Shown: piece after piece, positions 8,559-51,089 of the stretch
Position numbering within the stretch: the first letter of the stretch is position 1
How the letters are laid out: each line of letters starts with the position of its first letter
Notes under the pieces: model-generated
Database searches by the model: none
Seen by the model: only the letters and a program-made list of their open reading frames with translations
Told to the model about the DNA's origin: nothing
Program-made: the position numbers and the translations under genes
Origin: Cladophialophora immunda
Taxonomy: Eukaryota; Ascomycota; Eurotiomycetes; Chaetothyriales; Herpotrichiellaceae
DNA: 64,000 bases
Reading direction: 5' to 3'
NCBI RefSeq assembly: GCF_000835495.1
Contig: NW_015622545.1
Span: 248,001-312,000, forward strand

Positions 8559-10111
8559 ACATCGAATACTAGTTGAAAACAGAGCAGCGATCGGACACCA
8601 ATGGCGATCATACATGATGAATATTGGAGTCCATCCACACTCGGTTCATAGATGATGAGACTTGTGAATACAACTATGCCCTACCAATCGCAGGGCATTC
8701 TCAAACCCGAAGTCGTGCATCTATCACGTATTTCTCATAGTTTCAACACTTCCTAGAGAGCCACGTCGCGTGAATTGACCATCGCCGCGTCTGGAAAGCC
8801 GTAGGCATCAAGTGTTTGGTGCACCGCCTGCTGTCCACTTCGAGGACTACAGCCCAGGACTCGAGATATCCACAACGACTCTTCGTCGATCATTCATGCT
8901 CTTCTATACAGTCTCAAATATCACGTACCTCGTCATCAAACACATGCACGGCATGCGATGCATGAAAGTCAATGACCTTATCATCCCACGGAGCTCGGTT
9001 GAAACCCGACTTGTAGATCGCATTTCTTTGCCAACTTGGAACGCAGTTTACCAATCTGGCTTTCCCCGAACAAAGTATCACCTTGATATCCATTTGCCGT
9101 GGTCTGAGGAGTATATTTCTGCGGTACACGTCGGACAAGAGGCTGTAAGTGGTAGAAACCTGAGCACAACATATTGGAGGTCATCTCAGTCACCTCATCC
9201 GGACCAAAAATCCCCGATTTGTGATTAGCAGCTTTCATAGTGTGTGTTAGATATTCGAGCGAAGCGCCCGGTACAGAGCGAGTCCATGTACCGAGCACGA
9301 GAGCGAAGCTAAACTGATTACAGTGGCGAGCGAAGATCCAGAATGTTAGCACTTTTCTATAAAATAGTTATTTACTACTAGTAGATGAGTTCCCTCCTAA
9401 CTAAGTTATGTTACTATACTAGCGCTCATTTAAGGCCTCAGCCAAGGCCCTAGCGTGATAGTTCCACGTCCACCGACGTAGCCAATCCTGCCGCTCACAG
9501 GATTCTCTTCCAAGGACGGACCGTGGCATTCGGCCATAAGTTTCTCCGGGGCTGTTCCGAACACCCAAAATTCGTGAGCTCTATCATGATCAAAGATCCA
9601 TTCGTGAGCCCCTAGAGCAAGCGACCTCTTTCCACACAATGAACACGCTGCGTCTGTGCTTGATCTTGAGGCCCAGATCGTCCTAGGTGCAACCTGCCTT
9701 TCAGCTCCTCCTTCAAGTTTGCGTCCGTCAACGGCACGGGATAGCGTTTTATGCAAACTGCCGCGCCGTTGTTGGAGGCTTGAGACTGGCTCAAACCGCC
9801 ACGACTGTTTCATAGCTTAGACGTCCTTTCAGACGGCAACCGACGCATCTCGAACCCCAAAAAGGACAACGTCTTCTCATCAATCACCCGACATCATAGA
9901 ATAGCCCGCACGATTAGGCAGTCCTTGTGACTAGCCCGATAGGAATATACCATTTCGATAGGAGGTACCCTGACGCGATCATCAGAGAATAGCAGACAGC
10001 CAAGGAGTTTTCTGTCCGGAGTGGGATACAGTTTCAATTCTTGGTTGCCACCACCTTGTTGTCTTTCTCCACGTTTGCGACATCTCTGGTGCAACACCCC
10101 CCGGGGTCAAA
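8559..10111. other. Gene-poor interval
   Basis: About 1.55 kb without a gene I can support. Open frames here are short and resemble no known protein. Bases around 9350-9425 are AT-rich, with a small palindrome around TACTACTAGTAG. This may be an old relic or simply intergenic DNA. Confidence 0.5.
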
Positions 10112-11200
10112 ATGTCCCACTCGAAGCGCAACACGTCATTGGCTTTCTTTACCTCTCATGAACGCTCCCTCCTCCGTTCAAGTTGGGGGACTCAAACAAC
10201 CCGACTAACACGCGACTCGTTTCTCCCATTTGGGTATTGCCGCCTATGTCTTGGCTATGCGAACTCCCCTGTGGCTTGCGGGGAGGGAAACAAAGAAGCC
10301 CATCTATTCTGCAGGGAATGTGCGTTGAACGATCTCATGGCCCAGCGAAAAGAGATCAAACGACTAGAGAGAGAAGCCGAGATGAGGGAGAGGGAGGAGC
10401 GCGAGGAGAAAGCGCGGGAGGAGGAAGAGAGCAGGAAAAGGGAGCTGGAAAGGTTCGAGAGGACAGCGATGGGGTTTGCAGATGACGGGATCGAATCGAC
10501 GGGAAAAAAGAGGAAGAGAGAAGCCGAGGAATTGCATGCCCATTCGTCGGAGCTGCAACGCAACGGCGAAGGCAGCGAGAAGAACAAGAAAACAAAATCT
10601 TCTGAGGCGAGTTTTTGGGTCCCGGGCTCCGACAGCCTGTCTGCATCCAACACCACGACTTCAAAATCCAAGCAGCAAAAGCTTCACCCGCTATGTCCGG
10701 CATCCACGCCGGAGGATAAACACGGCTACTCGCTGAAATCACTCATCACCGTCAATTTTGCAGAGATCGAGCCCGAAAATAGGGCCGGCGGCGGGAAGGC
10801 GGACGAACCAACGAGGGTCTGTCCGAGCTGCAAGAAAGCCCTAACCAACACTTCAAGGCCGATGTTGGGGACGGCAGACGGATGTGGGCATGTGATCTGC
10901 GGCGCATGCGCTGACTTGTTTCTCGTTGGTACCCGTTCCAATGGTGTGTCGTCGAAGCGGGGCGACACAACAAATCCGAGTATCCTCTGCTACGTCTGTG
11001 AGGCGGATCTGAGCGGACCATCGCCCGGAGCTGGAGATAGTCACGACAAGGGAGGCAAGGACAAGAAGCAGAAGCACAAGGAGGGAAAACACAGCAGTCG
11101 AAAGGTGGGCAGACTGGTCGAGATTAGTTGCGAAGGTACAGGGTTCGCTGGCGGAGGGTCGAATGTGGCGAAGCGGGAGGGCGTGGCATTTCAGTGCTGA
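10112..11200 (+). CDS. NOSIP-like RING/U-box family protein
   Basis: Single-exon gene, 362 residues, similar in layout to nitric oxide synthase-interacting protein, a nuclear ubiquitin-ligase-type protein linked to the spliceosome. The N terminus MSHSKRNTS and the following zf-NOSIP region with CRLCLGYANSPV and FCREC form a degenerate RING/U-box. A long charged helix follows (about residues 85-140), then a low-complexity stretch, and near the C terminus a second zinc-ligand-like region with VCPSCKKAL, CGHVICGAC and CYVCEADL. The tail GGGSNVAKREGVAFQC fits the family, whose members end close to such a motif. Whether it is an active ligase cannot be judged from sequence. Confidence 0.82.
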   Translation: MSHSKRNTSLAFFTSHERSLLRSSWGTQTTRLTRDSFLPFGYCRLCLGYANSPVACGEGNKEAHLFCRECALNDLMAQRKEIKRLEREAEMREREEREEKAREEEESRKRELERFERTAMGFADDGIESTGKKRKREAEELHAHSSELQRNGEGSEKNKKTKSSEASFWVPGSDSLSASNTTTSKSKQQKLHPLCPASTPEDKHGYSLKSLITVNFAEIEPENRAGGGKADEPTRVCPSCKKALTNTSRPMLGTADGCGHVICGACADLFLVGTRSNGVSSKRGDTTNPSILCYVCEADLSGPSPGAGDSHDKGGKDKKQKHKEGKHSSRKVGRLVEISCEGTGFAGGGSNVAKREGVAFQC

Positions 11201-11654
11201 TTCAGAATGGGCAGCTTTCAGTCTGGCCATTCTATGTTCCCTGCACTTTCCTGAGTGCCCTCATAGTGCTCCGTATATCTGGTGGCTCATCGGGCCTTGT
11301 CGCCGCTCCAGCAGCGCGAGTCAGGGAATTGCATGAGGCTGCCGGAAGCGGATTATCATAATTCTCCGATGGGGGGAAGACTGAGCCTCAGCCAAACTTG
11401 ACGTGTGCTCAAACTGCGCTGCGGAATTTTGGGATCAGCCTCGTTCTGCCGACGACCATGCCTCACTCTCCTTTCCTCCTGGCATAATATCTGGCTTGTA
11501 ATCTCCTCGTCTGCTTGAGCAGATACTGAAATGGGTGCTCGTCTGGACAACCGAGGGTCCATTGCAATATCACAAGAGCCAGACTGATCGGCCGGCGCAC
11601 TTTATCCCCGCCTCCCTCCTCCGAACCGTTAAAGACGACAACCCGACCGCCAAA
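11201..11654. other. Intergenic spacer
   Basis: About 450 bases between two tandem genes. The open frame of the next gene extends upstream of its ATG, but the homologous start lies at 11655. Nothing else is seen. Confidence 0.5.
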
Positions 11655-12740
11655 ATGCAGGGCTTCAACATGGGCCGCTACGTCCCTCCGGACCTGGAGG
11701 GCGTGGTCTCCTTCAACACCGCCTCGGGCAAGGGTCACGCGCTGGGCTCGCGCGCGCGCAAGCTCAAGACCGAAGGCGTCCTGACCGTTCGCTTCGAGTG
11801 CCCGTTCGCCATCTGGTGCACGCACTGCCGGCCCGAGCAGCTCATCGGGCAAGGCGTGCGGTTCAATGCCGAGAAGAAGAAGGTGGGCAACTACTTCTCC
11901 ACGCCGATCTGGAGTTTCCGCTTCAAGCACGCCGCCTGCGGCGGCTGGGTGGAGGTCCGCACGGATCCCAAGAACGCCGAGTACGTGGTCGTCGAGGGCG
12001 GGCGGCGGAGGGACACGGGCGCCGACAAGCTCCTGGACGGCGAGATCCAGATCACCGGCGGCGGGGTGACCGAGGAGGACAAAGAGCGGCTGGAGCGCAA
12101 CGGCGGGTTCGGCGCGCTGGAGAAGAAGATCCAGGACAAGACGCTGTTTGATTCTCAGAAGGAGAGACTCGAGAGTCTCCTCAAGGCCAGCGAGCGCGAC
12201 TGGGCGGACCCGTACGAGCGGAGTAAACGCCTCCGCGCCGAGTTTCGCGTGGGCAGGCGGAAGAGACAGGCCGACGAAAAGTCCGGGGAGGCGTTGAAGG
12301 AGAAGTTCGGGCTGGAGCTGGACATGGTGGGCGAAGATGCCGAGGACGGCGAGAGGGCCAAATTTGTCGAGTTTGGTGACCATGCCGCTGAGCTGTCGTC
12401 GTCGACGAGCTCGAGGAAGCCCATGTTTAGCACTGCTCTCAACACTGGGCCGTTGATTCCCCTATCTATTTCCACCCCCTCATCCTCCTCTCGGTCGAAG
12501 TCCAGCACCGCCGCGAAGTCGGACCACAAAAAGGAAATACTGCAAAGCACGCTACGAAGCAATACGAGGATCGCGTCCGATCCTTTCTTGAGAGAGGAAG
12601 ATGTCTGGCAGCCTAGAGTCAAACGGAAACGGCCGGACGAAGGGGTGACGGAGCAGAAGCAAGAGAAAGAGAAAGAGACGAAGACAAAAGTGGCAAACAG
12701 CACGGCGTTGGTGGTGGGCTATGATTCAGATTCATCGTGA
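11655..12740 (+). CDS. saf4: Saf4/CCDC130-type pre-mRNA splicing factor (Yju2/CWC16 family)
   Basis: Nuclear spliceosome-associated protein of 361 residues. The N-terminal half is the conserved CWC16 domain: MGRYVPPDLEG, then SRARKLKTEGVLTVRFE, CPFAIWCTHC, GVRFNAEKKKVGNY and a second zinc-ligand region with HAACGGW, where the usual first cysteine is a histidine. TDPKNAEYVVVEGGRRRDTG closes the domain. The C-terminal half is charged and low complexity. The start at 11655 was chosen because the family begins immediately before the Tyr-Val-Pro-Pro motif; the upstream in-frame extension to 11535 has no family similarity. The N terminus resembles CCDC130/Saf4 rather than Yju2 itself. Confidence 0.88.
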   Translation: MQGFNMGRYVPPDLEGVVSFNTASGKGHALGSRARKLKTEGVLTVRFECPFAIWCTHCRPEQLIGQGVRFNAEKKKVGNYFSTPIWSFRFKHAACGGWVEVRTDPKNAEYVVVEGGRRRDTGADKLLDGEIQITGGGVTEEDKERLERNGGFGALEKKIQDKTLFDSQKERLESLLKASERDWADPYERSKRLRAEFRVGRRKRQADEKSGEALKEKFGLELDMVGEDAEDGERAKFVEFGDHAAELSSSTSSRKPMFSTALNTGPLIPLSISTPSSSSRSKSSTAAKSDHKKEILQSTLRSNTRIASDPFLREEDVWQPRVKRKRPDEGVTEQKQEKEKETKTKVANSTALVVGYDSDSS

Positions 12741-12848
12741 TACCCCCTGTTCCCATGCTCGACTTGATACATGTCCCAGTCTGGTTTTGGTTCCCGTGCA
12801 GAATAATCATACATTTTGAAACCGTCTTCTTGTGCCCTCGTACAACGC

Positions 12849-14390
12849 TTACTTCTGCCCTTCGGGATTTTGCTGGATCGTCTTCGTGTCCGTCTCCTTC
12901 AGCGCTTGCAGCGGCCGTCTCTGTGCTCCAGCAAAGCCGCCTCGAGGAGGCGCTGGCGCTGGCGCTCGACTCGCCCAGGGCGCCTGCGTGACACCGTTGA
13001 CGAACCCCGCTGGTGCTGCTGACGGTTTCGCAGCCCAGGGAGCAGCCGTTGACCCCATCGGCGGGCCACTCGGTCTCATCGCGCTTGGGGCATTGGTGTC
13101 CATTGGGTTTCGGAGGGGTTGACTCGCAGCGTGTGTGGAGGGTGGTGGCGGCCTGGCTTTGGGATCCCGCTCCCACTCGAACAGAGATCCGAAGGGAAAA
13201 TGCTGGACGACGGGGAACTTGGAGAGCACTTCTGCGTTGTACATCTTGATCATGCCCTTGTTGATCTTGCCCCAACCGTCCTTGATGCCAGATATGTCGA
13301 AAAGCATGGGGCTGTGTTCCCAGAACGGACCCCTTTTGACGTCGTAAATGAACGCTATGGCCGAAAAGTACATATTTGAACCCTTCTCCTTCTCGACGAG
13401 GTTGAGTTTTGTCACTGCAGATGCCTCGGGCGCGTCAGGGAGCGACCCTTCGGTAGGGGTGTCGTCTGTTTCAGCGATCGGCGGGCATAGTTGCGCAGAG
13501 CCAAAAATATATGGGAGGAATGAATTGTCATCCAAGCCCCAAACACCGTGAGACCCGGCCGGTTCCAAGGTGTACGTCTTGATGAGTTTCCTGATGAGGA
13601 TGAGGTATAGCTCGAAAACCCCCAGGGCAATTCCTCGCTCTTCCACTCCCGCTTCGGCCTCGGGGAAGAAACTCAGCTTCCACAGGCAAGCCAGGAAGGC
13701 AAGAAAGCTGAGCTCGTGGCCTGTCCCATAGTCCAGCCGTTGAGCGCTGCCAAGGCTTCCCAGGAAATATGAGGTGAGTTCTTCATGCGCTGGTCCTAGT
13801 TCTTCTGGCAGAGATTCCGTCAAGAGGTCGCCAACCTGTTCCTCGACGATCCTGTACCACTTGCGGAAGCTGACGTTGCCAAATCGCCGAGGGCCGGTAT
13901 CAGGAGGAACCGCTTCGACGAGCTCTATTAGCTTATTCAACAGACTTCGCAGCCGATACACGGCATCTGAGAACACAACGTCCTCAGAGTCTAATCGCCA
14001 GGTCGTAATTGCGGTCGTTCCTCCAGTCTGATTTTTGCGTGGCAAAACCGACCTGTTCAATTGCAGCATAAATGTCATGATGTCCCGATATGCCAGCGAC
14101 ATCAGAAAGAAGGAAACGTCAGGGCCATCGAAGATCTTTTTCACCGGCTTCTCAAACTGATGCTCCTTTACGTCGGCAATTTTTGCGAGTGTTGGAAAGT
14201 TCGCCATCTCGCTTGTTCCTTGGACTCGAACACGAATCTGGAAGTGATCCTAGAGAACATACAGGACAAGAGTTTACATGAAAGCCGACGATTCTGGACA
14301 ATTCACCTCAGTGGGGGATGGTGAAATACGCGGATAGTCGATGTGACGATAGAACGTCTGCGCTTGGCTCGATGACGAGGCTGAACTCAT
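12849..14390 (-). CDS. PP2A phosphatase activator (PTPA, Rrd1/Rrd2 family), two exons
   Basis: Peptidyl-prolyl isomerase-like activator that helps form active PP2A-type phosphatases. The long exon contains the family signatures [18 protein letters not shown], a [16 protein letters not shown] ATP-binding motif and [19 protein letters not shown] extend the gene upstream: an ATG at 14390 opens a short first exon, an intron starts GTGAATT and ends CTCTAG, and the joined frame enters the long exon in phase 0. Total is about 495 residues. The tail of about 100 residues is rich in Pro and Ala with repeated APWA motifs, an extension seen in some fungal members. It overlaps no neighbour and is divergent from the gene at 14562. 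The choice between Rrd1 and Rrd2 is not settled. Confidence 0.87.
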
Positions 14391-22966: not shown

Positions 22967-25900
22967 CTAGTCCATCTCGCCCAGACTGCTCAGTAACCAC
23001 TCGGGCTCGGCGTCGTCGTCTTCTGGGTCATGAGAGAGGAGGGACCCCGCTATAGAGGCAGAGCCAGACCTGGAACCAGAACCAGGACCAGAACCAGGAC
23101 TCTGCAGTGCTGGATCCCTTGCGTGGTCGGCGCCTCCTTCGCCTTGACCTGATGTGGTCTCCCCGCTCCTGGCGGTCGGCTGTTTTGGCTGGAGCGTGGC
23201 GGTCCCTGATAGGGACTGGGCAGACAGTGCCATAGCCGCATCGGGTATATGCTTCGAATGCGTCGACGGTTCTACATCCTCGCTTGATCCTCCGACTCCC
23301 TCGGCCGTTATGCTCCGGGGCTTGGCACTGCTATCTCCGGCAGCGGCGGCGGTCGCATTTCCCGCAGCACCAGCAGCATCCTTCAATCTCTCTTCGGTTG
23401 ACGTGTGTTCTGCCTCAGAGAGCGTCGCAACTGCTTCCGGCTTGATCGAGTCGCCATGAGCCGCGCGAGACCGCGGCTGGGATTCATCATCTCCGTCCTC
23501 ATCCTCGGGCAGGAAGCCGCCTCCTTCATTGTCCTCTTCGAAAATGAACCTGCCACCTCCATCGTGCGAGATGTTGCCGTGTAGGGATGCCGCATGTCCG
23601 TGGTTTTGACTCTCTCCAACATTCTGGTCCATATCATCATCGGAGATGAACCCACCGCCCGCATCGTCCGCCTCATGGAGAAACCCTCCACTCTCGTCCG
23701 CATTCGGCGGTTCCGCTACGACTCGGTCGCGGCGCCGCGACAGGTCAGAGAAAGGCAGTTGTGCGAGCTTGTTCGGAGATCTGACGACAATCACATCTTG
23801 ATGCACAACTTCGGCGGGAAGAAGCTGGTTCAGTGGTTTCAGGTTTGGTGGCGTCGAAGGAACAGTGTTGGCAGCATCTTCGCTTTCATCCAGTTCCGCC
23901 TGGTCTAGCATGAATCCGCCACCATCTTCCTCGTCTCGGTAGGTAGCGTCTTCTTCTGCATTGGCGTCTTTGTGAATGCTGAAGTGTTTCTGGTTCCCGT
24001 ACTGCCGATGGACATGCTCGTGCACGCGCAAAGCAGTGAGCCATCTCTTCCACATCGCCAGAATGATCTTGGTCCTCGCTTCCTGCACCTCTTCTGTCGC
24101 CTGGGCCTCCAGACCCTCAATCACGTTGATCATGGCGTTGGTCATATTCATGCTTACAACCACACCATCAATGACGGCTGTGCCCTGCCGGCCTTTGAAC
24201 TGAAATCCCGTCACCGCATCTGCATAATTTATCTCAAGAACGCGAGCCGCTGCCGATGCCAGCGGATGGCGGATGTGGACTGCACCAGCGGGTATCATCG
24301 AGGGAACGTAGACATCCAGGTTTCCGTATGCGTTGCGGGGTATCTTCTCATCGACGACAGGCGGCGGCTCGTAGAGACTGGTCTGGAATTCAGCATAGAG
24401 AGCCATTCCTTCTTGGGCCTCGTCTTCGTCGTCAAGGTCTTCAGCAGTTGCAGCGTCCAGGTTCCGCTGTCGCTTAGGGACCACTCGTTTCAACGGCTGC
24501 TCCCCTTCATTGACATCACGACCCCGCCGGTACCACGCATCCGCGGTCCGACATACATGCACATCTCGTCTGCGGAACACACTCTCAAGCTTTGCGCTTT
24601 TTAGGGGCCCAGAACTCACTTTGCCCACCTCATGTCGAGGATGTATGACCTCGTTCAGCCGTAAGTGCCGTTCTAAGACATAGACAGGATGTCCTCTAAA
24701 ATCCTGTATGTTTTTGGGCATGGGTTCGCTTTCGGCGCGCTTGAGCAGACTTGCATCCTCGATCTCGTCCCGTGTCTCGCTGAACGGCTTCTGAAAGAGG
24801 TTCATCGTCACCTCCCACCACTTGTCGCCACCCTTTGTACTCTCCACTCGTTGCTTTCGTGTTTTTGCGTTGTACCATTGAGTGTAGCGCCTTGTGACAT
24901 CTCTGGCTGAGTCGTCATCTTCAAATGCGATAACGTAAGTCATGCTGTTGAGTTGATCAGATGCAGGAGGTTCGAACCCGGTCTTTGGTTTGTTGATTGT
25001 GTTGCGGACGAGAGGGTCCAGCGGGATCCAAGTTTGCACAGAAGGCGACAGAACTTCGACCCAAAATATCGGAAAGGGAGACTCGACAATTCTCTTTTTC
25101 TTGGGAGTTGGAGTGCGTTCGCGCGTAGTAGTGACGTTCCTGTCTTGCGTCCCCGAACCAAAATTCTGGGGAGGCGCATAGATGTATTGGGGTTTGGGCT
25201 TTTCTGGGGTCTGTCCCTTGGCGATTCCAGAGAATGGCAGGACTTGAAGAGAGCATACTAATCGGGCATCTACTGCTACTGAGCGGAGTAGGGCGCAGAA
25301 TAGTTGAGCTCCTAGATCTCTCGAACCCGAGCGAGAGACCGCTGCGGCTTTGAAGTCGTCAAAGTCGACCAAGTCTTCAGCATCGTCGCTCTCCTTGACG
25401 GCGTCGACGTCTTCTCTCCAATGAGCGCGATTCATCCCCCGTGCAGTGATTTTCCACTGCTGCCTCCAAAGAGCGCAGACTTCCTCGATGCCCTTGTTGA
25501 ACGAATGTGATCTCTGATATTGAGGTTTAGACTCGTCGACATGAAGTAACGAGATCACCTTGCGAGGCACGAGAGGCTTCAAGAGAGAATGCACGAACTC
25601 ACTGTTGCACCATCTGTTACGGCAGTTGAGGTGTGCCAGTAAAAAAACGAGGTGGGCCTTGTGTACATCCAGGCGAAGCTTGCGCTCTGCCAGACTAACA
25701 GGCTTGCGTCGTTGAATCGCGCGCCTCGGCGTACTGGTCTTGGACAAATCGAGTTCGAGGGTCTTCTGTTCAAGTAGCCGGTCTTCGACAGCGTGGTTTG
25801 TGGTTGCTTCGAGATCGACGTCTTCAAACTCGGCGTCGGATTCGTCCGAGTCCTCGAAATCATCGAAGACGACCTGTTGGATCTTGGGAGGTGCATAGTC

Positions 25901-26170
25901 AGCAGGTGCCGTACCGCCATCATCTTGGGCGTCTGTCCGAGAACCAAATAGGTCAAAATCGAGTTCGATCTGGGTCGACGGTTCCTCGCTTATCTTCCGC
26001 CGCTTGGTAGCTCGCGAGTTCGAAGCCGAAGCCTGTTCCTCGGCGACGGCGTCGGCGAGCATATCGCCATAAACTTCAGGAATATCATCTCCAGGCTTTT
26101 TGGGTTGGCGAGCGGACCGACGTGTCGGCCTTGACGCTCTTGCAGCCGGCTGACTCGCCCTGCGCGGCAT
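22967..26170 (-). CDS. rad4: Rad4/XPC-type DNA damage recognition protein
   Basis: Nuclear damage sensor of global-genome nucleotide excision repair. Single exon, 1067 residues, start MPRRASQ at 26170. The basic N terminus is followed by the transglutaminase-like region (from about residue 160, with HLVFLLAHLNCRNRWCNSE and later SPFPIFWVEVLSP). The beta-hairpin domains come next: HPVYVLERHLRLNEVIHP (BHD1), NAYGNLDVYVPSMIPAGAVH (BHD2) and VTGFQFKGRQGTAVIDGVVV (BHD3). The roughly 300-residue acidic tail is disordered, with repeated GGGF-type units such as DDAGGGFISDDD. It is longer than yeast Rad4, mainly because of this tail. It is divergent from the tRNA/Bfr2 side. Confidence 0.93.
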   Translation of the reverse strand: MPRRASQPAARASRPTRRSARQPKKPGDDIPEVYGDMLADAVAEEQASASNSRATKRRKISEEPSTQIELDFDLFGSRTDAQDDGGTAPADYAPPKIQQVVFDDFEDSDESDAEFEDVDLEATTNHAVEDRLLEQKTLELDLSKTSTPRRAIQRRKPVSLAERKLRLDVHKAHLVFLLAHLNCRNRWCNSEFVHSLLKPLVPRKVISLLHVDESKPQYQRSHSFNKGIEEVCALWRQQWKITARGMNRAHWREDVDAVKESDDAEDLVDFDDFKAAAVSRSGSRDLGAQLFCALLRSVAVDARLVCSLQVLPFSGIAKGQTPEKPKPQYIYAPPQNFGSGTQDRNVTTTRERTPTPKKKRIVESPFPIFWVEVLSPSVQTWIPLDPLVRNTINKPKTGFEPPASDQLNSMTYVIAFEDDDSARDVTRRYTQWYNAKTRKQRVESTKGGDKWWEVTMNLFQKPFSETRDEIEDASLLKRAESEPMPKNIQDFRGHPVYVLERHLRLNEVIHPRHEVGKVSSGPLKSAKLESVFRRRDVHVCRTADAWYRRGRDVNEGEQPLKRVVPKRQRNLDAATAEDLDDEDEAQEGMALYAEFQTSLYEPPPVVDEKIPRNAYGNLDVYVPSMIPAGAVHIRHPLASAAARVLEINYADAVTGFQFKGRQGTAVIDGVVVSMNMTNAMINVIEGLEAQATEEVQEARTKIILAMWKRWLTALRVHEHVHRQYGNQKHFSIHKDANAEEDATYRDEEDGGGFMLDQAELDESEDAANTVPSTPPNLKPLNQLLPAEVVHQDVIVVRSPNKLAQLPFSDLSRRRDRVVAEPPNADESGGFLHEADDAGGGFISDDDMDQNVGESQNHGHAASLHGNISHDGGGRFIFEEDNEGGGFLPEDEDGDDESQPRSRAAHGDSIKPEAVATLSEAEHTSTEERLKDAAGAAGNATAAAAGDSSAKPRSITAEGVGGSSEDVEPSTHSKHIPDAAMALSAQSLSGTATLQPKQPTARSGETTSGQGEGGADHARDPALQSPGSGPGSGSRSGSASIAGSLLSHDPEDDDAEPEWLLSSLGEMD

Positions 26171-26556: not shown

Positions 26557-26561
26557 AAAAA
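26557..26561 (-). terminator. RNA polymerase III terminator
   Basis: A run of five T residues on the minus strand begins about 15 bases after the tRNA discriminator base. This is the expected place and form of a Pol III stop. Confidence 0.7.
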
Positions 26562-26595
26562 GAAAGCAAAGAGAAGGGCTGAACTGGGAATTGAA

Positions 26596-26651
26596 CTTAG
26601 GGTGAAAGTTAGTAACCTGCCGTCGCCCAAGAAATGTATGGTAAAACTCAC
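26596..26651 (-). other. 56-nt spliceosomal-like insertion in the tRNA-Pro T arm
   Basis: Begins GTGAGT, has TACTAAC at 26614-26608 with the branch-type A 13 nt from the 3' end, and ends CTAAG. These are the donor, branch and acceptor signals of fungal spliceosomal introns, and the length matches mRNA introns of this window (52-60 nt). Removal exactly joins T-stem CTGGG to T-loop TTCAATT. Its last base G leaves AGTTCAATTCC at the 3' junction, a near-consensus B box. Confidence 0.78.
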
Positions 26652-26667
26652 CCCAGGACCTCTTACA

Positions 26668-26684
26668 ATCAAGACAGAAAGACT
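26668..26684 (-). other. Canonical 17-nt tRNA intron at position 37/38
   Basis: Lies one base 3' of the anticodon, the normal site for the tRNA splicing endonuclease in fungi. tRNA-Pro(UGG) is a common carrier of such an intron. Confidence 0.75.
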
Positions 26685-26747
26685 CCCAAAGCAAGAATTC
26701 TACCTCTGAACTATTCAGCCGGATTTTAGCTTATTTCGTAGACTGCA

Positions 26748-26755
26748 ATATATAT
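26748..26755 (-). promoter_or_regulatory. TATA-like box upstream of the tRNA gene
   Basis: ATATATAT lies about 28-35 bases upstream of the tRNA 5' end. Many fungal tRNA genes have an upstream TATA element at this distance. Confidence 0.55.
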
Positions 26756-49398: not shown

Positions 49399-51089
49399 TC
49401 AATGTTCGTCTGTTTTCCACTGTTGCAACAAGTAAAGCGCACCACCGACCAGATGCAAGCTACCCGTCACCAGCACTTGCAGACCGTCTCTCTGCAAGCT
49501 GGCGCTGTGGGCGCATTCCAATGCTTCTTCAATCGAAGGTAGATATCGGGTCCTGGCAGTGGGATAGATCGATCGCCACAGATCGCAGTACTGTTTCGGA
49601 AGATCCGTCAGTATGCTATCCGGAGGCTTCAAAGTCTTATCTAGTTTCTGTCAGTATCAAACTTGGAGCGCCAGTCTATTGCATACCTGGTCGAATTGTC
49701 CCATCACGTCGTTCCTGGTACGTTGTAAACACCATCTCAGGACAATGGATATCACTCCGCTCGACCGCACTCGCCAATGCTCTCAACAACGACGCGCCAT
49801 CCCGTTCTTCCGACATATGAGAGAAGATGATCATACACGGAGGACCTTGTTGACTAGAATCGCACACAGAAGACGACATCGTTATCTCAGCAAACCACTT
49901 GACCGCCTGTCCAATGCTCAGTTCGTTGTGAGCTCCGTCGAGGAACCAAGCACATTTGTCTGTCTTGATCACCTCAAACCTGCCGGGCCATGAGAAGTTG
50001 TCGATACCCCTCTGGATGTCCTGCTCGCTCAGCGTATTTTCCTCGAACGGGCTTTTTCGGGAGACAAAAGCGTTGACGAGAGCGATGGCTAAGGAGCAAT
50101 TGATGCGTTGCACTTGCGCACGCAACGCGTTCGCATTAGGAGGTAGAGAAGGACGGATAGGGACAACCTCGAATTGAACGCCTTTCTCAGCGGCCCGGGA
50201 TCTCAGAACAGCTTCAACCGCGGGCACTTGTGGAGCAGAGAAAGCAGGCGTGCCGTTCTTGAAGATGCCGGCCTTGTGCCAAGCTATATCCTCGATGCCA
50301 GGTCCCAGCTGCGCCAGATGATCTAATCCGATGGATGTGATTCCAGTCACGACGGGTGAAGAAACAACATTTGTAGCGTCGTACTCGCCACCATGATGCG
50401 TCTCAAAGATGGCTGCTTGGGCTCCCTCCTGAGAAAAGGTGTGGATGGCCAGCAATGCAATCAGTTGCAGATACCGAGGCTGTCTCTCGTCCTCGGCCAC
50501 CACTTCATCCTGCCGTGAGAACAACCGGTCCCAGACCTCGAAAAAGTACTTGGTGAACAGATCCTCCGAGATGGGTTGCCCATTGATTTGAATCCGCTCT
50601 CGAATGGACGTCAGATCTGGTGAAGTGTAGAGACCAATTTTGGTGGGAAACCCCGTTCGTTTCCCCCATTCTTGCAGTAAAGACCGAGTGAATGCACAGG
50701 TACTGCCTTTTCCTTTTGTCCCAGCAACGTGTACAATGTTCAAGGCCGCTACATCCCCGTCCTTCGATGTTTGTTAGAAGAGGTGTGGTTGGAGTTGAAC
50801 AAAAGCCTTCAAGACCTACCGTGTAGCCTATCTTTTGCAGCCAATTCCTCATACCTGCTATGCTCGGCGTCCCACGCAAGGAAGAACGAGCTTCCGCTCG
50901 TGGTTTGTCGGCAGCATGAGGACTGAGAATGGGGCTGGCCACATTTTTGGGCCTTGTCTTCCTTCTCCTGGTTTCGAGGAGCCTCAATGCGTTCTGAAGC
51001 TTCCTCAGTCCAAGTCCTCAAACAGTAAGGCAGCAGCGGCCTACCTCATATGTTCTTTTGAAACATGATCCCGTACCTTTCGGATGCAT
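49399..51089 (-). CDS. Folylpolyglutamate synthase, four exons
   Basis: Mur-ligase-family enzyme that adds glutamates to folates. The first exon starts at an ATG at 51089 and ends FKRTYE, then an intron GTAGGC. The second exon carries NALRLLETRRR and MRNWLQKIGYT. The long third exon carries the P-loop HVAGTKGKGSTCAF, GLYTSPDLTSIRERI and SIGLDHLAQLG, with HKAGIF and WFLDGAHNELS. The last exon starts after an intron near 49685-49630 and reads KPPDSILTDLPKQYCDLW, ending at 49399. Starting instead at the Met just before NIVHVAG would lose the family N terminus. Total is about 490 residues, normal for the family. No mitochondrial presequence is evident from this start. Confidence 0.9.

Follow-up and report, generated by a model that had tools for sequence, protein, structure and literature searches.

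The 64,000-nt stretch of DNA analyzed here (the window) comes from Cladophialophora immunda (Herpotrichiellaceae, Chaetothyriales), whose assembly comprises 42.2 Mb in 39 contigs. Its minus strand carries a tRNA-Pro(UGG) gene (26576..26720) that measures 145 nt with both of its introns, matches the Rfam tRNA model RF00005 and folds into a cloverleaf after both introns are removed. One of the two, placed by the cloverleaf reading, is a canonical 17-nt tRNA intron at position 37/38 (26668..26684, minus). The other is a 56-nt intron of spliceosomal type at tRNA position 53/54 (26596..26651, minus), delimited by the sequence, by ARAGORN and by a deletion scan. It runs GTGAGT…TACTAAC…AAG; the branch motif TACTAAC occupies 26608..26614 (minus), and its branch A (26609) lies 13 nt before the end of the intron. 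The last exon bases upstream of it are the 5ʹ strand of the T-stem, CTGGG (positions 49–53; 26652..26656, minus), and the first bases past it are the T-loop TTCAATT and the 3ʹ strand of the T-stem, CCCAG (positions 54–65; 26584..26595, minus). In the spliced form, all base pairs form in the acceptor stem (GGCTGAA/TTCAGCC) and in the T-stem (CTGGG/CCCAG), the T-loop reads TTCAATT, and C occupies position 73.

The gene is surrounded and pervaded by Pol III-like signals. Box A, TAGTTCAGAGG (26703..26713, minus), is uninterrupted and agrees with the consensus at 8/8 positions. Box B as it stands in the DNA, AGTTCAATTCC (26587..26597, minus), scores 8/9, rising to 9/9 after splicing; in the DNA, G53 is supplied by the AG of the intron's terminal AAG. 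A TATA-like upstream element was seen in the sequence at about −35 to −29 (26749..26755, minus), and a T5 run resembling a Pol III terminator (26557..26561, minus) starts 14 nt past the tRNA 3ʹ end. All these features bear out a sequence-only reading of this DNA, which had described a complete minus-strand tRNA-Pro after two removals, a 17-nt intron at 37/38, a 56-nt insert at 53/54 with GTGAGT, TACTAAC, a branch A 13 nt before its end and a terminal AAG, fully pairing stems, and a flanking TATA-like box and terminator. The tRNA gene is followed on the same strand by a 1067-aa open reading frame (22967–26170, minus), whose start is about 400 nt further downstream.

Searches with existing tools agreed with this layout. 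The unspliced gene (26576–26720) scored 30.9 bits against RF00005, with a gathering score of 29, over the full model (1–71). ARAGORN, run with the tool's settings, reported no tRNA anywhere in the unspliced 64-kb window and called Pro(tgg) once the 56 nt had been removed. Within the window, the tRNA model alone reached its Rfam gathering score, and the insert is 56 nt long against the hundreds of nucleotides of group I or group II introns. Nor does the insert belong to the canonical tRNA introns, since it lies at 53/54 and not at 37/38.

We searched the whole assembly for other tRNA-Pro(UGG) copies, a test that the sequence-only reading had named. The joined T arm of tRNA-Pro(UGG) had no exact match in the 42.2 Mb. 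A 20-nt D-loop/anticodon pattern, searched with at most two mismatches, matched 18 sites versus 11 for its reversed control, and 3 of the 18 were tRNA-Pro genes, namely the UGG gene of the window, one CGG gene and one AGG gene. No intact Pro gene of any isoacceptor was found by this pattern at up to two mismatches; a more diverged copy would escape both searches. All proline codons would therefore depend on the spliceosome. The locus C4:4402522 was rejected: it has the 16 nt at which the window gene ends (3ʹ) in common with that gene, and no tRNA body was found there. The class of tRNA pseudogenes does not suit the locus either, because the spliced cloverleaf is complete and the patterns used revealed no intact copy.

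To compare the insert with mRNA introns, we used the folylpolyglutamate synthase (FPGS) gene of the window, which is PV07_08472 of C. immunda (100% identity; its 511 residues lie in four exact DNA blocks) and the sole annotated gene serving as a yardstick. Its introns are 51, 58, and 46 nt long, begin with GTAGGC, GTAGGT, and GTATGC, and end with CAG, AAG, and TAG, respectively; CTRAC is present in the last two of the three. The 58-nt intron (50762–50819, minus) ends in AAG, so an annotated mRNA intron at a distance of 24 kb sets a precedent for the AAG end of the tRNA-Pro intron. On sequence, and with this one annotated gene for comparison, the claim that the insert has the signals and length of this organism's mRNA introns was upheld. 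Pairs of the form GTRNGT…CTRAC…YAG spaced 40–69 nt numbered 10 in the window versus 3 in the reversed sequence, and 29 in the 3-kb loci (some tRNA introns included) versus 9 when reversed. An ab initio intron caller gave 71 nt for the FPGS intron that is annotated as 58 nt, and in a Pfam search with five joined predicted proteins, the enoyl-CoA hydratase junction was the one that fell inside a domain match. A second protein of the window is 95% identical to C. immunda CLAIMM_08321.

The insert turned out not to be a lone oddity: the sequence-only reading concerned one gene, whereas such inserts occur across the genome. We collected tRNA genes by an Rfam search of the assembly, which scored 63 of 935 candidates and gave 23 matches, by patterns for box B, the D arm, and the T arm (loci among the matches listed) and by short fetches, and read them with a finder script that detects a tRNA whether or not GT…CTRAY…AG pieces have to be taken out. 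Among the 40 tRNA genes read, 15 have spliceosomal-type inserts outside 37/38 (19 inserts in total) and 25 have none. The interrupted genes are Pro(UGG), Pro(CGG), Pro(AGG), Arg(UCU), Glu(UUC), Glu(CUC), Asn(GUU), Leu(CAG), Leu(UAG), Leu(UAA), Ala(AGC), Asp(GUC)-1, Gln(UUG), Phe(GAA), and Ile(UAU), and they include all three Pro genes, both Glu genes, the sole Phe gene, and the sole Asn gene among those found. Six of them, besides the window gene, had first been spotted by eye, before the script. The sites are 3/4 (twice), 7/8, 8/9, 9/10, the D-loop (three times), 23/24, 24/25, 29/30 (twice), 32/33, 42/43, 43/44, the variable loop, 52/53, 53/54, and 60/61; none of the 19 inserts is at 37/38. 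Pro(CGG) has 57 nt at 8/9 (GTATGT…TTCTAAC…TAG), and Pro(AGG) has 53 nt at 3/4 and 49 nt at 32/33 (locus L033). Two spliceosomal-type inserts plus one canonical intron, three introns in all, are present in Asn (L071), Leu(CAG) (L073), Pro(AGG) (L033), and Phe (L118).

Two ARAGORN labels were corrected in the course of this survey. L033, labeled tRNA-His, is Pro(AGG) once its two introns are removed, and L112/L024, labeled tRNA-Trp, is Ile(UAU), which was accepted only with a relaxed anticodon-stem cut-off that tolerates a U-U at 31/39.

The 19 inserts form a uniform class. They are 49–69 nt long (median 54), and all begin with GT and have a purine at +3 (19/19 each), with G at +5 in 18/19. Their 3ʹ ends are CAG in 12, TAG in 4, and AAG in 3, and CTRAC lies 10–15 nt from the 3ʹ end in 18/19, the exception being Leu(UAA) with CATTAAC. 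These motif counts are partly given by construction, because the finder required GT, AG, and CTRAY. In their splice-site ends, their branch motif and their mRNA-intron length class, the inserts have what characterizes U2-type introns. They are not copies of one another: at E 0.01, none of the 19 resembles any insert but itself, and a 181-nt query from the window gene, the one gene used for this search, matches only itself genome-wide. An introner-like element was therefore rejected, as near-identical copies were not found.

The same results bear on the quality of the assembly. An error at 26596–26651 is implausible, as 14 further tRNA genes carry the same kind of insert, and 19 inserts with common splice motifs and no mutual similarity at E 0.01 also argue against it; an assembly or sequencing error can be set aside as having hardly any probability at all.

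As the inserts found by the script meet the motifs by construction, a motif-blind deletion scan offers a fair test of their ends. Every deletion of 40–80 nt around each insert (9,799–13,899 deletions each) was scored with a home-made cloverleaf score, the other insert being taken out first in genes with two. The chance of a GT…AG cut was taken as the size of the best-scoring class, which ranged from 1 to 36, divided by 256. The GT…AG cut fell in the best-scoring class for 16 of the 19 inserts, whereas chance, summed over all inserts, would give 0.58. Around the window gene, any tRNA at all resulted from 11 of the 13,776 deletions, and the best class comprised two alternative registers of the 56-nt deletion, of which one is GT…AG. 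The exceptions were Asn 42/43 (four better cuts), Ala(AGC) 7/8 (two better cuts, the GT…AG cut leaving a U-U mismatch at 6/67), and Asp-1 24/25 (one better cut, yet its Asp paralogue supports the GT…AG cut). An earlier scan with nine genes and deletions of 30–110 nt agreed, with Ala and Asp-1 outside the best class.

A further test used decoy motifs made by base permutation. In 345 decoy runs, no tRNA scoring at least 27.9, the lowest real score, was restored (0/345), whereas the real motif did so in 14 of 15 loci, with about 3 candidate introns per decoy run versus 8 for the real motif. The locus missed was Leu(UAA), whose insert had been spotted by eye. ARAGORN was run on all interrupted genes except Ile. 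In spliced form, 14/14 were found, 11 with the expected anticodon and the other three with another anticodon and an intron assigned; in unspliced form, 7/14 were found.

This exact restoration of tRNAs is also relevant to a reading in which the 56 nt of the window gene are a 5ʹ-UTR intron of a Pol II transcript of the open reading frame at 22967–26170, overlapping the tRNA by chance. That frame lies on the same strand and its start is near. However, removal of the 56 nt rebuilds an exact T arm, and such introns occur at scattered tRNA positions in 14 other genes, which makes a chance overlap very improbable.

A canonical 37/38 intron is present in all 15 interrupted genes and in 19 of the 25 others, reaching up to 57 nt. 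The Sen endonuclease must therefore be active in these cells, and one might suppose that it removes the inserts too, as non-canonical introns like those of archaea and Cyanidioschyzon merolae, the GT…AG look being secondary. Sen needs neither GT…AG ends nor CTRAC at 10–15 nt from the 3ʹ end, which speaks against this supposition. Furthermore, the 25 genes without inserts contain 19 canonical introns, not one of which is GT…AG (0/19), and the inserts match the mRNA introns of the window in size and ends. Precedents for the sites do exist, with archaeal non-canonical introns at 3/4 and 53/54 and nucleomorph ones in the D and T arms, according to excerpts of a review (PMC4090602). Weighing these points, we regard removal by Sen as improbable, and removal of U2-type introns by the spliceosome as the better account.

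Would the interrupted genes simply be dead copies, the working tRNAs coming from intact genes elsewhere? The catalogue leaves room for such genes: fetches that covered part of the pattern matches turned up no gene for His, Lys, Trp, Tyr, Ser(GCU), Val(AAC), or Gln(CUG). Two of the 19 loci fetched for the D-arm pattern were tRNA genes, with several further matches beyond those 19, and the 14 matches of the T-arm pattern (13 loci fetched) gave one tRNA gene, Phe. tRNA debris is present in the genome, as seen from the truncated Asp-like copy L103 (C3:2775230-2775700, minus), whose first 21 nt are identical to tRNA-Asp before it diverges and in which no cloverleaf was found. Isolated insertions in the arms of eukaryotic tRNA genes are supposed pseudogenes in excerpts of the same review (PMC4090602). 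Against this stand the searches for proline genes described above, with no intact Pro gene by the 20-nt pattern and no exact joined Pro(UGG) T arm, the single Phe gene among the 14 T-arm matches, and the spliced forms themselves, which fold into complete cloverleafs and come with terminators as well as promoter boxes. The window gene shows no decay, in that its cloverleaf is full once the inserts are removed. A general loss of function thus has little probability, and working genes with U2-type introns remain the preferred reading.

The signals for Pol III point in the same direction. Each of the 40 tRNA genes has a run of T5 or longer no more than 25 nt past its 3ʹ end, compared to 1.5% of random 25-mers of the window, and a TATA-like string lies within 60 nt upstream of 9 of the 15 interrupted genes. 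The introns cut box A in five and box B in three of the 15 genes (8/15). For scoring, we used strings that we take to be the box A and box B consensus. Splice-site bases largely rebuild the cut boxes, and box B of Leu(UAA) stays at 9/9; in the unspliced DNA, at the best spacing, all 15 genes reach 6/8 or better for box A and 7/9 or better for box B. The boxes and the terminators fit transcription by Pol III from internal promoters, as far as can be judged from sequence. No T5 run occurs in the spliceosomal-type introns, with 1.0 expected, and avoidance of oligo-T inside the inserts was discarded as not significant (P ~0.34). The canonical intron of Leu(UAA) (L080) contains a T6 run, which might cause partial Pol III termination.

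The two Asp(GUC) genes provide a natural empty site. Asp(GUC)-1 (L089) has a 53-nt intron at 24/25 (GTAAGT…ATCTAAC…CAG), and Asp(GUC)-2 (L084) has the same exons and no spliceosomal-type intron. The two genes have different canonical introns, and over the 60 nt of 5ʹ flank they match at 13 positions. Judging from the paired sequences, a spliceosomal-type intron has evidently been gained or lost in one of the paralogues, which opens gain or loss of the intron to a direct test.

The spliceosome is not known to process tRNAs. As for other Pol III RNAs, Tani and Ohshima reportedly described mRNA-type introns in fission-yeast U6 snRNA genes in 1989 and 1991. Fission-yeast U6 is presented as a Pol III RNA with an mRNA-type spliceosomal intron in the part of one paper available (PMC8917221). 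It resembles the present case as a small Pol III RNA gene with a spliceosomal intron. Unlike the tRNAs, however, U6 is a component of the spliceosome, whereas here many tRNA loci are interrupted at many positions; in C. immunda, the single U6 snRNA match above the cut-off (L126, C3:4237854-4237954; 101 nt) is uninterrupted.

The non-canonical tRNA introns of archaea, nucleomorphs, and C. merolae likewise occupy sites other than the anticodon loop, and a gene may hold more than one of them (PMC4090602, in excerpts). Those of archaea and C. merolae are tied to a bulge-helix-bulge in the portions available of PMC4090602 and PMC3978253, whereas the inserts are set apart by GT…CTRAC…AG and 49–69 nt. 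The nucleomorph introns of Guillardia theta measure 3–24 nt (PMC4090602, in excerpts) against these 49–69 nt. Canonical nuclear tRNA introns (37/38, Sen plus ligase) are present in the same 15 genes, but the inserts occupy other sites and have splice as well as branch motifs. There is also a likeness to the U2-type introns of C. immunda protein genes, with which the inserts agree in ends, length class, and CTRAC (in two of the three compared), differing in that they sit in tRNA genes. In excerpts of the review, eukaryotic nuclear tRNA introns are described as removed by protein enzymes (PMC4090602), and the stem "spliceosom" is absent from the main text of this review and of the tRNAscan-SE 2.0 paper (PMC8450103). 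The sequence-only reading had named no described case of a spliceosomal-type intron in a tRNA gene, and we found no report of spliceosomal introns in nuclear tRNA genes in the open-access literature, among the matches listed and in the parts of the texts available, subscription journals and bioRxiv being outside this scope.

Taken together, these results make it very likely that the window gene is a working Pol III tRNA-Pro(UGG) gene, the sole one found, with one endonuclease intron and one U2-type intron, and that the same holds for at least 14 further genes. The motifs of the inserts, as well as the need for the affected tRNAs, suggest that the spliceosome removes them. Pol III would transcribe a precursor with both kinds of intron. 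The spliceosome would then excise the 56 nt, restoring CTGGG-TTCAATT-CCCAG, and removal of the GT…AG intron would let the tRNA body fold. Afterwards, Sen would cut out the 37/38 intron, the ends would be trimmed, and CCA would be added by the normal path. The spliceosomal step would come before or alongside end-trimming and endonuclease cleavage, because both need a folded tRNA body. In general terms, ordinary spliceosomal introns probably occur at almost any tRNA position in this genome (15/40 genes), and presumably in related black yeasts too; judging by the genes found, the decoding of Pro, Glu, Phe, and Asn codons would then depend on the spliceosome, with the cut promoter boxes largely re-created in the DNA.

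Inserts that hide tRNA genes may be the cause of some very low tRNA counts in Chaetothyriales. In the available parts of the publications, 52 tRNAs, 28 of them spliced, are given without further comment for C. immunda CBS 110551 (PMC5595782), 30 for Fonsecaea erecta (PMC5640708), 38 for Exophiala mesophila (PMC8709033), and 37–76 for domatia strains (PMC8900376), and further published counts are 64 and 73. Such low counts would follow if spliceosomal introns hide tRNA genes. The effect cannot hold equally across the order, because two carton-nest species have 143 and 208 (PMC8900376, in its available part).

If this interpretation is true, many essential tRNA genes with spliceosomal introns would couple translation to the spliceosome, which would be an obligatory tRNA-maturation machine in this fungus. 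Pol III transcripts could then be routine substrates of the spliceosome, and introns could enter even structured RNAs of 73 nt and their internal promoters.
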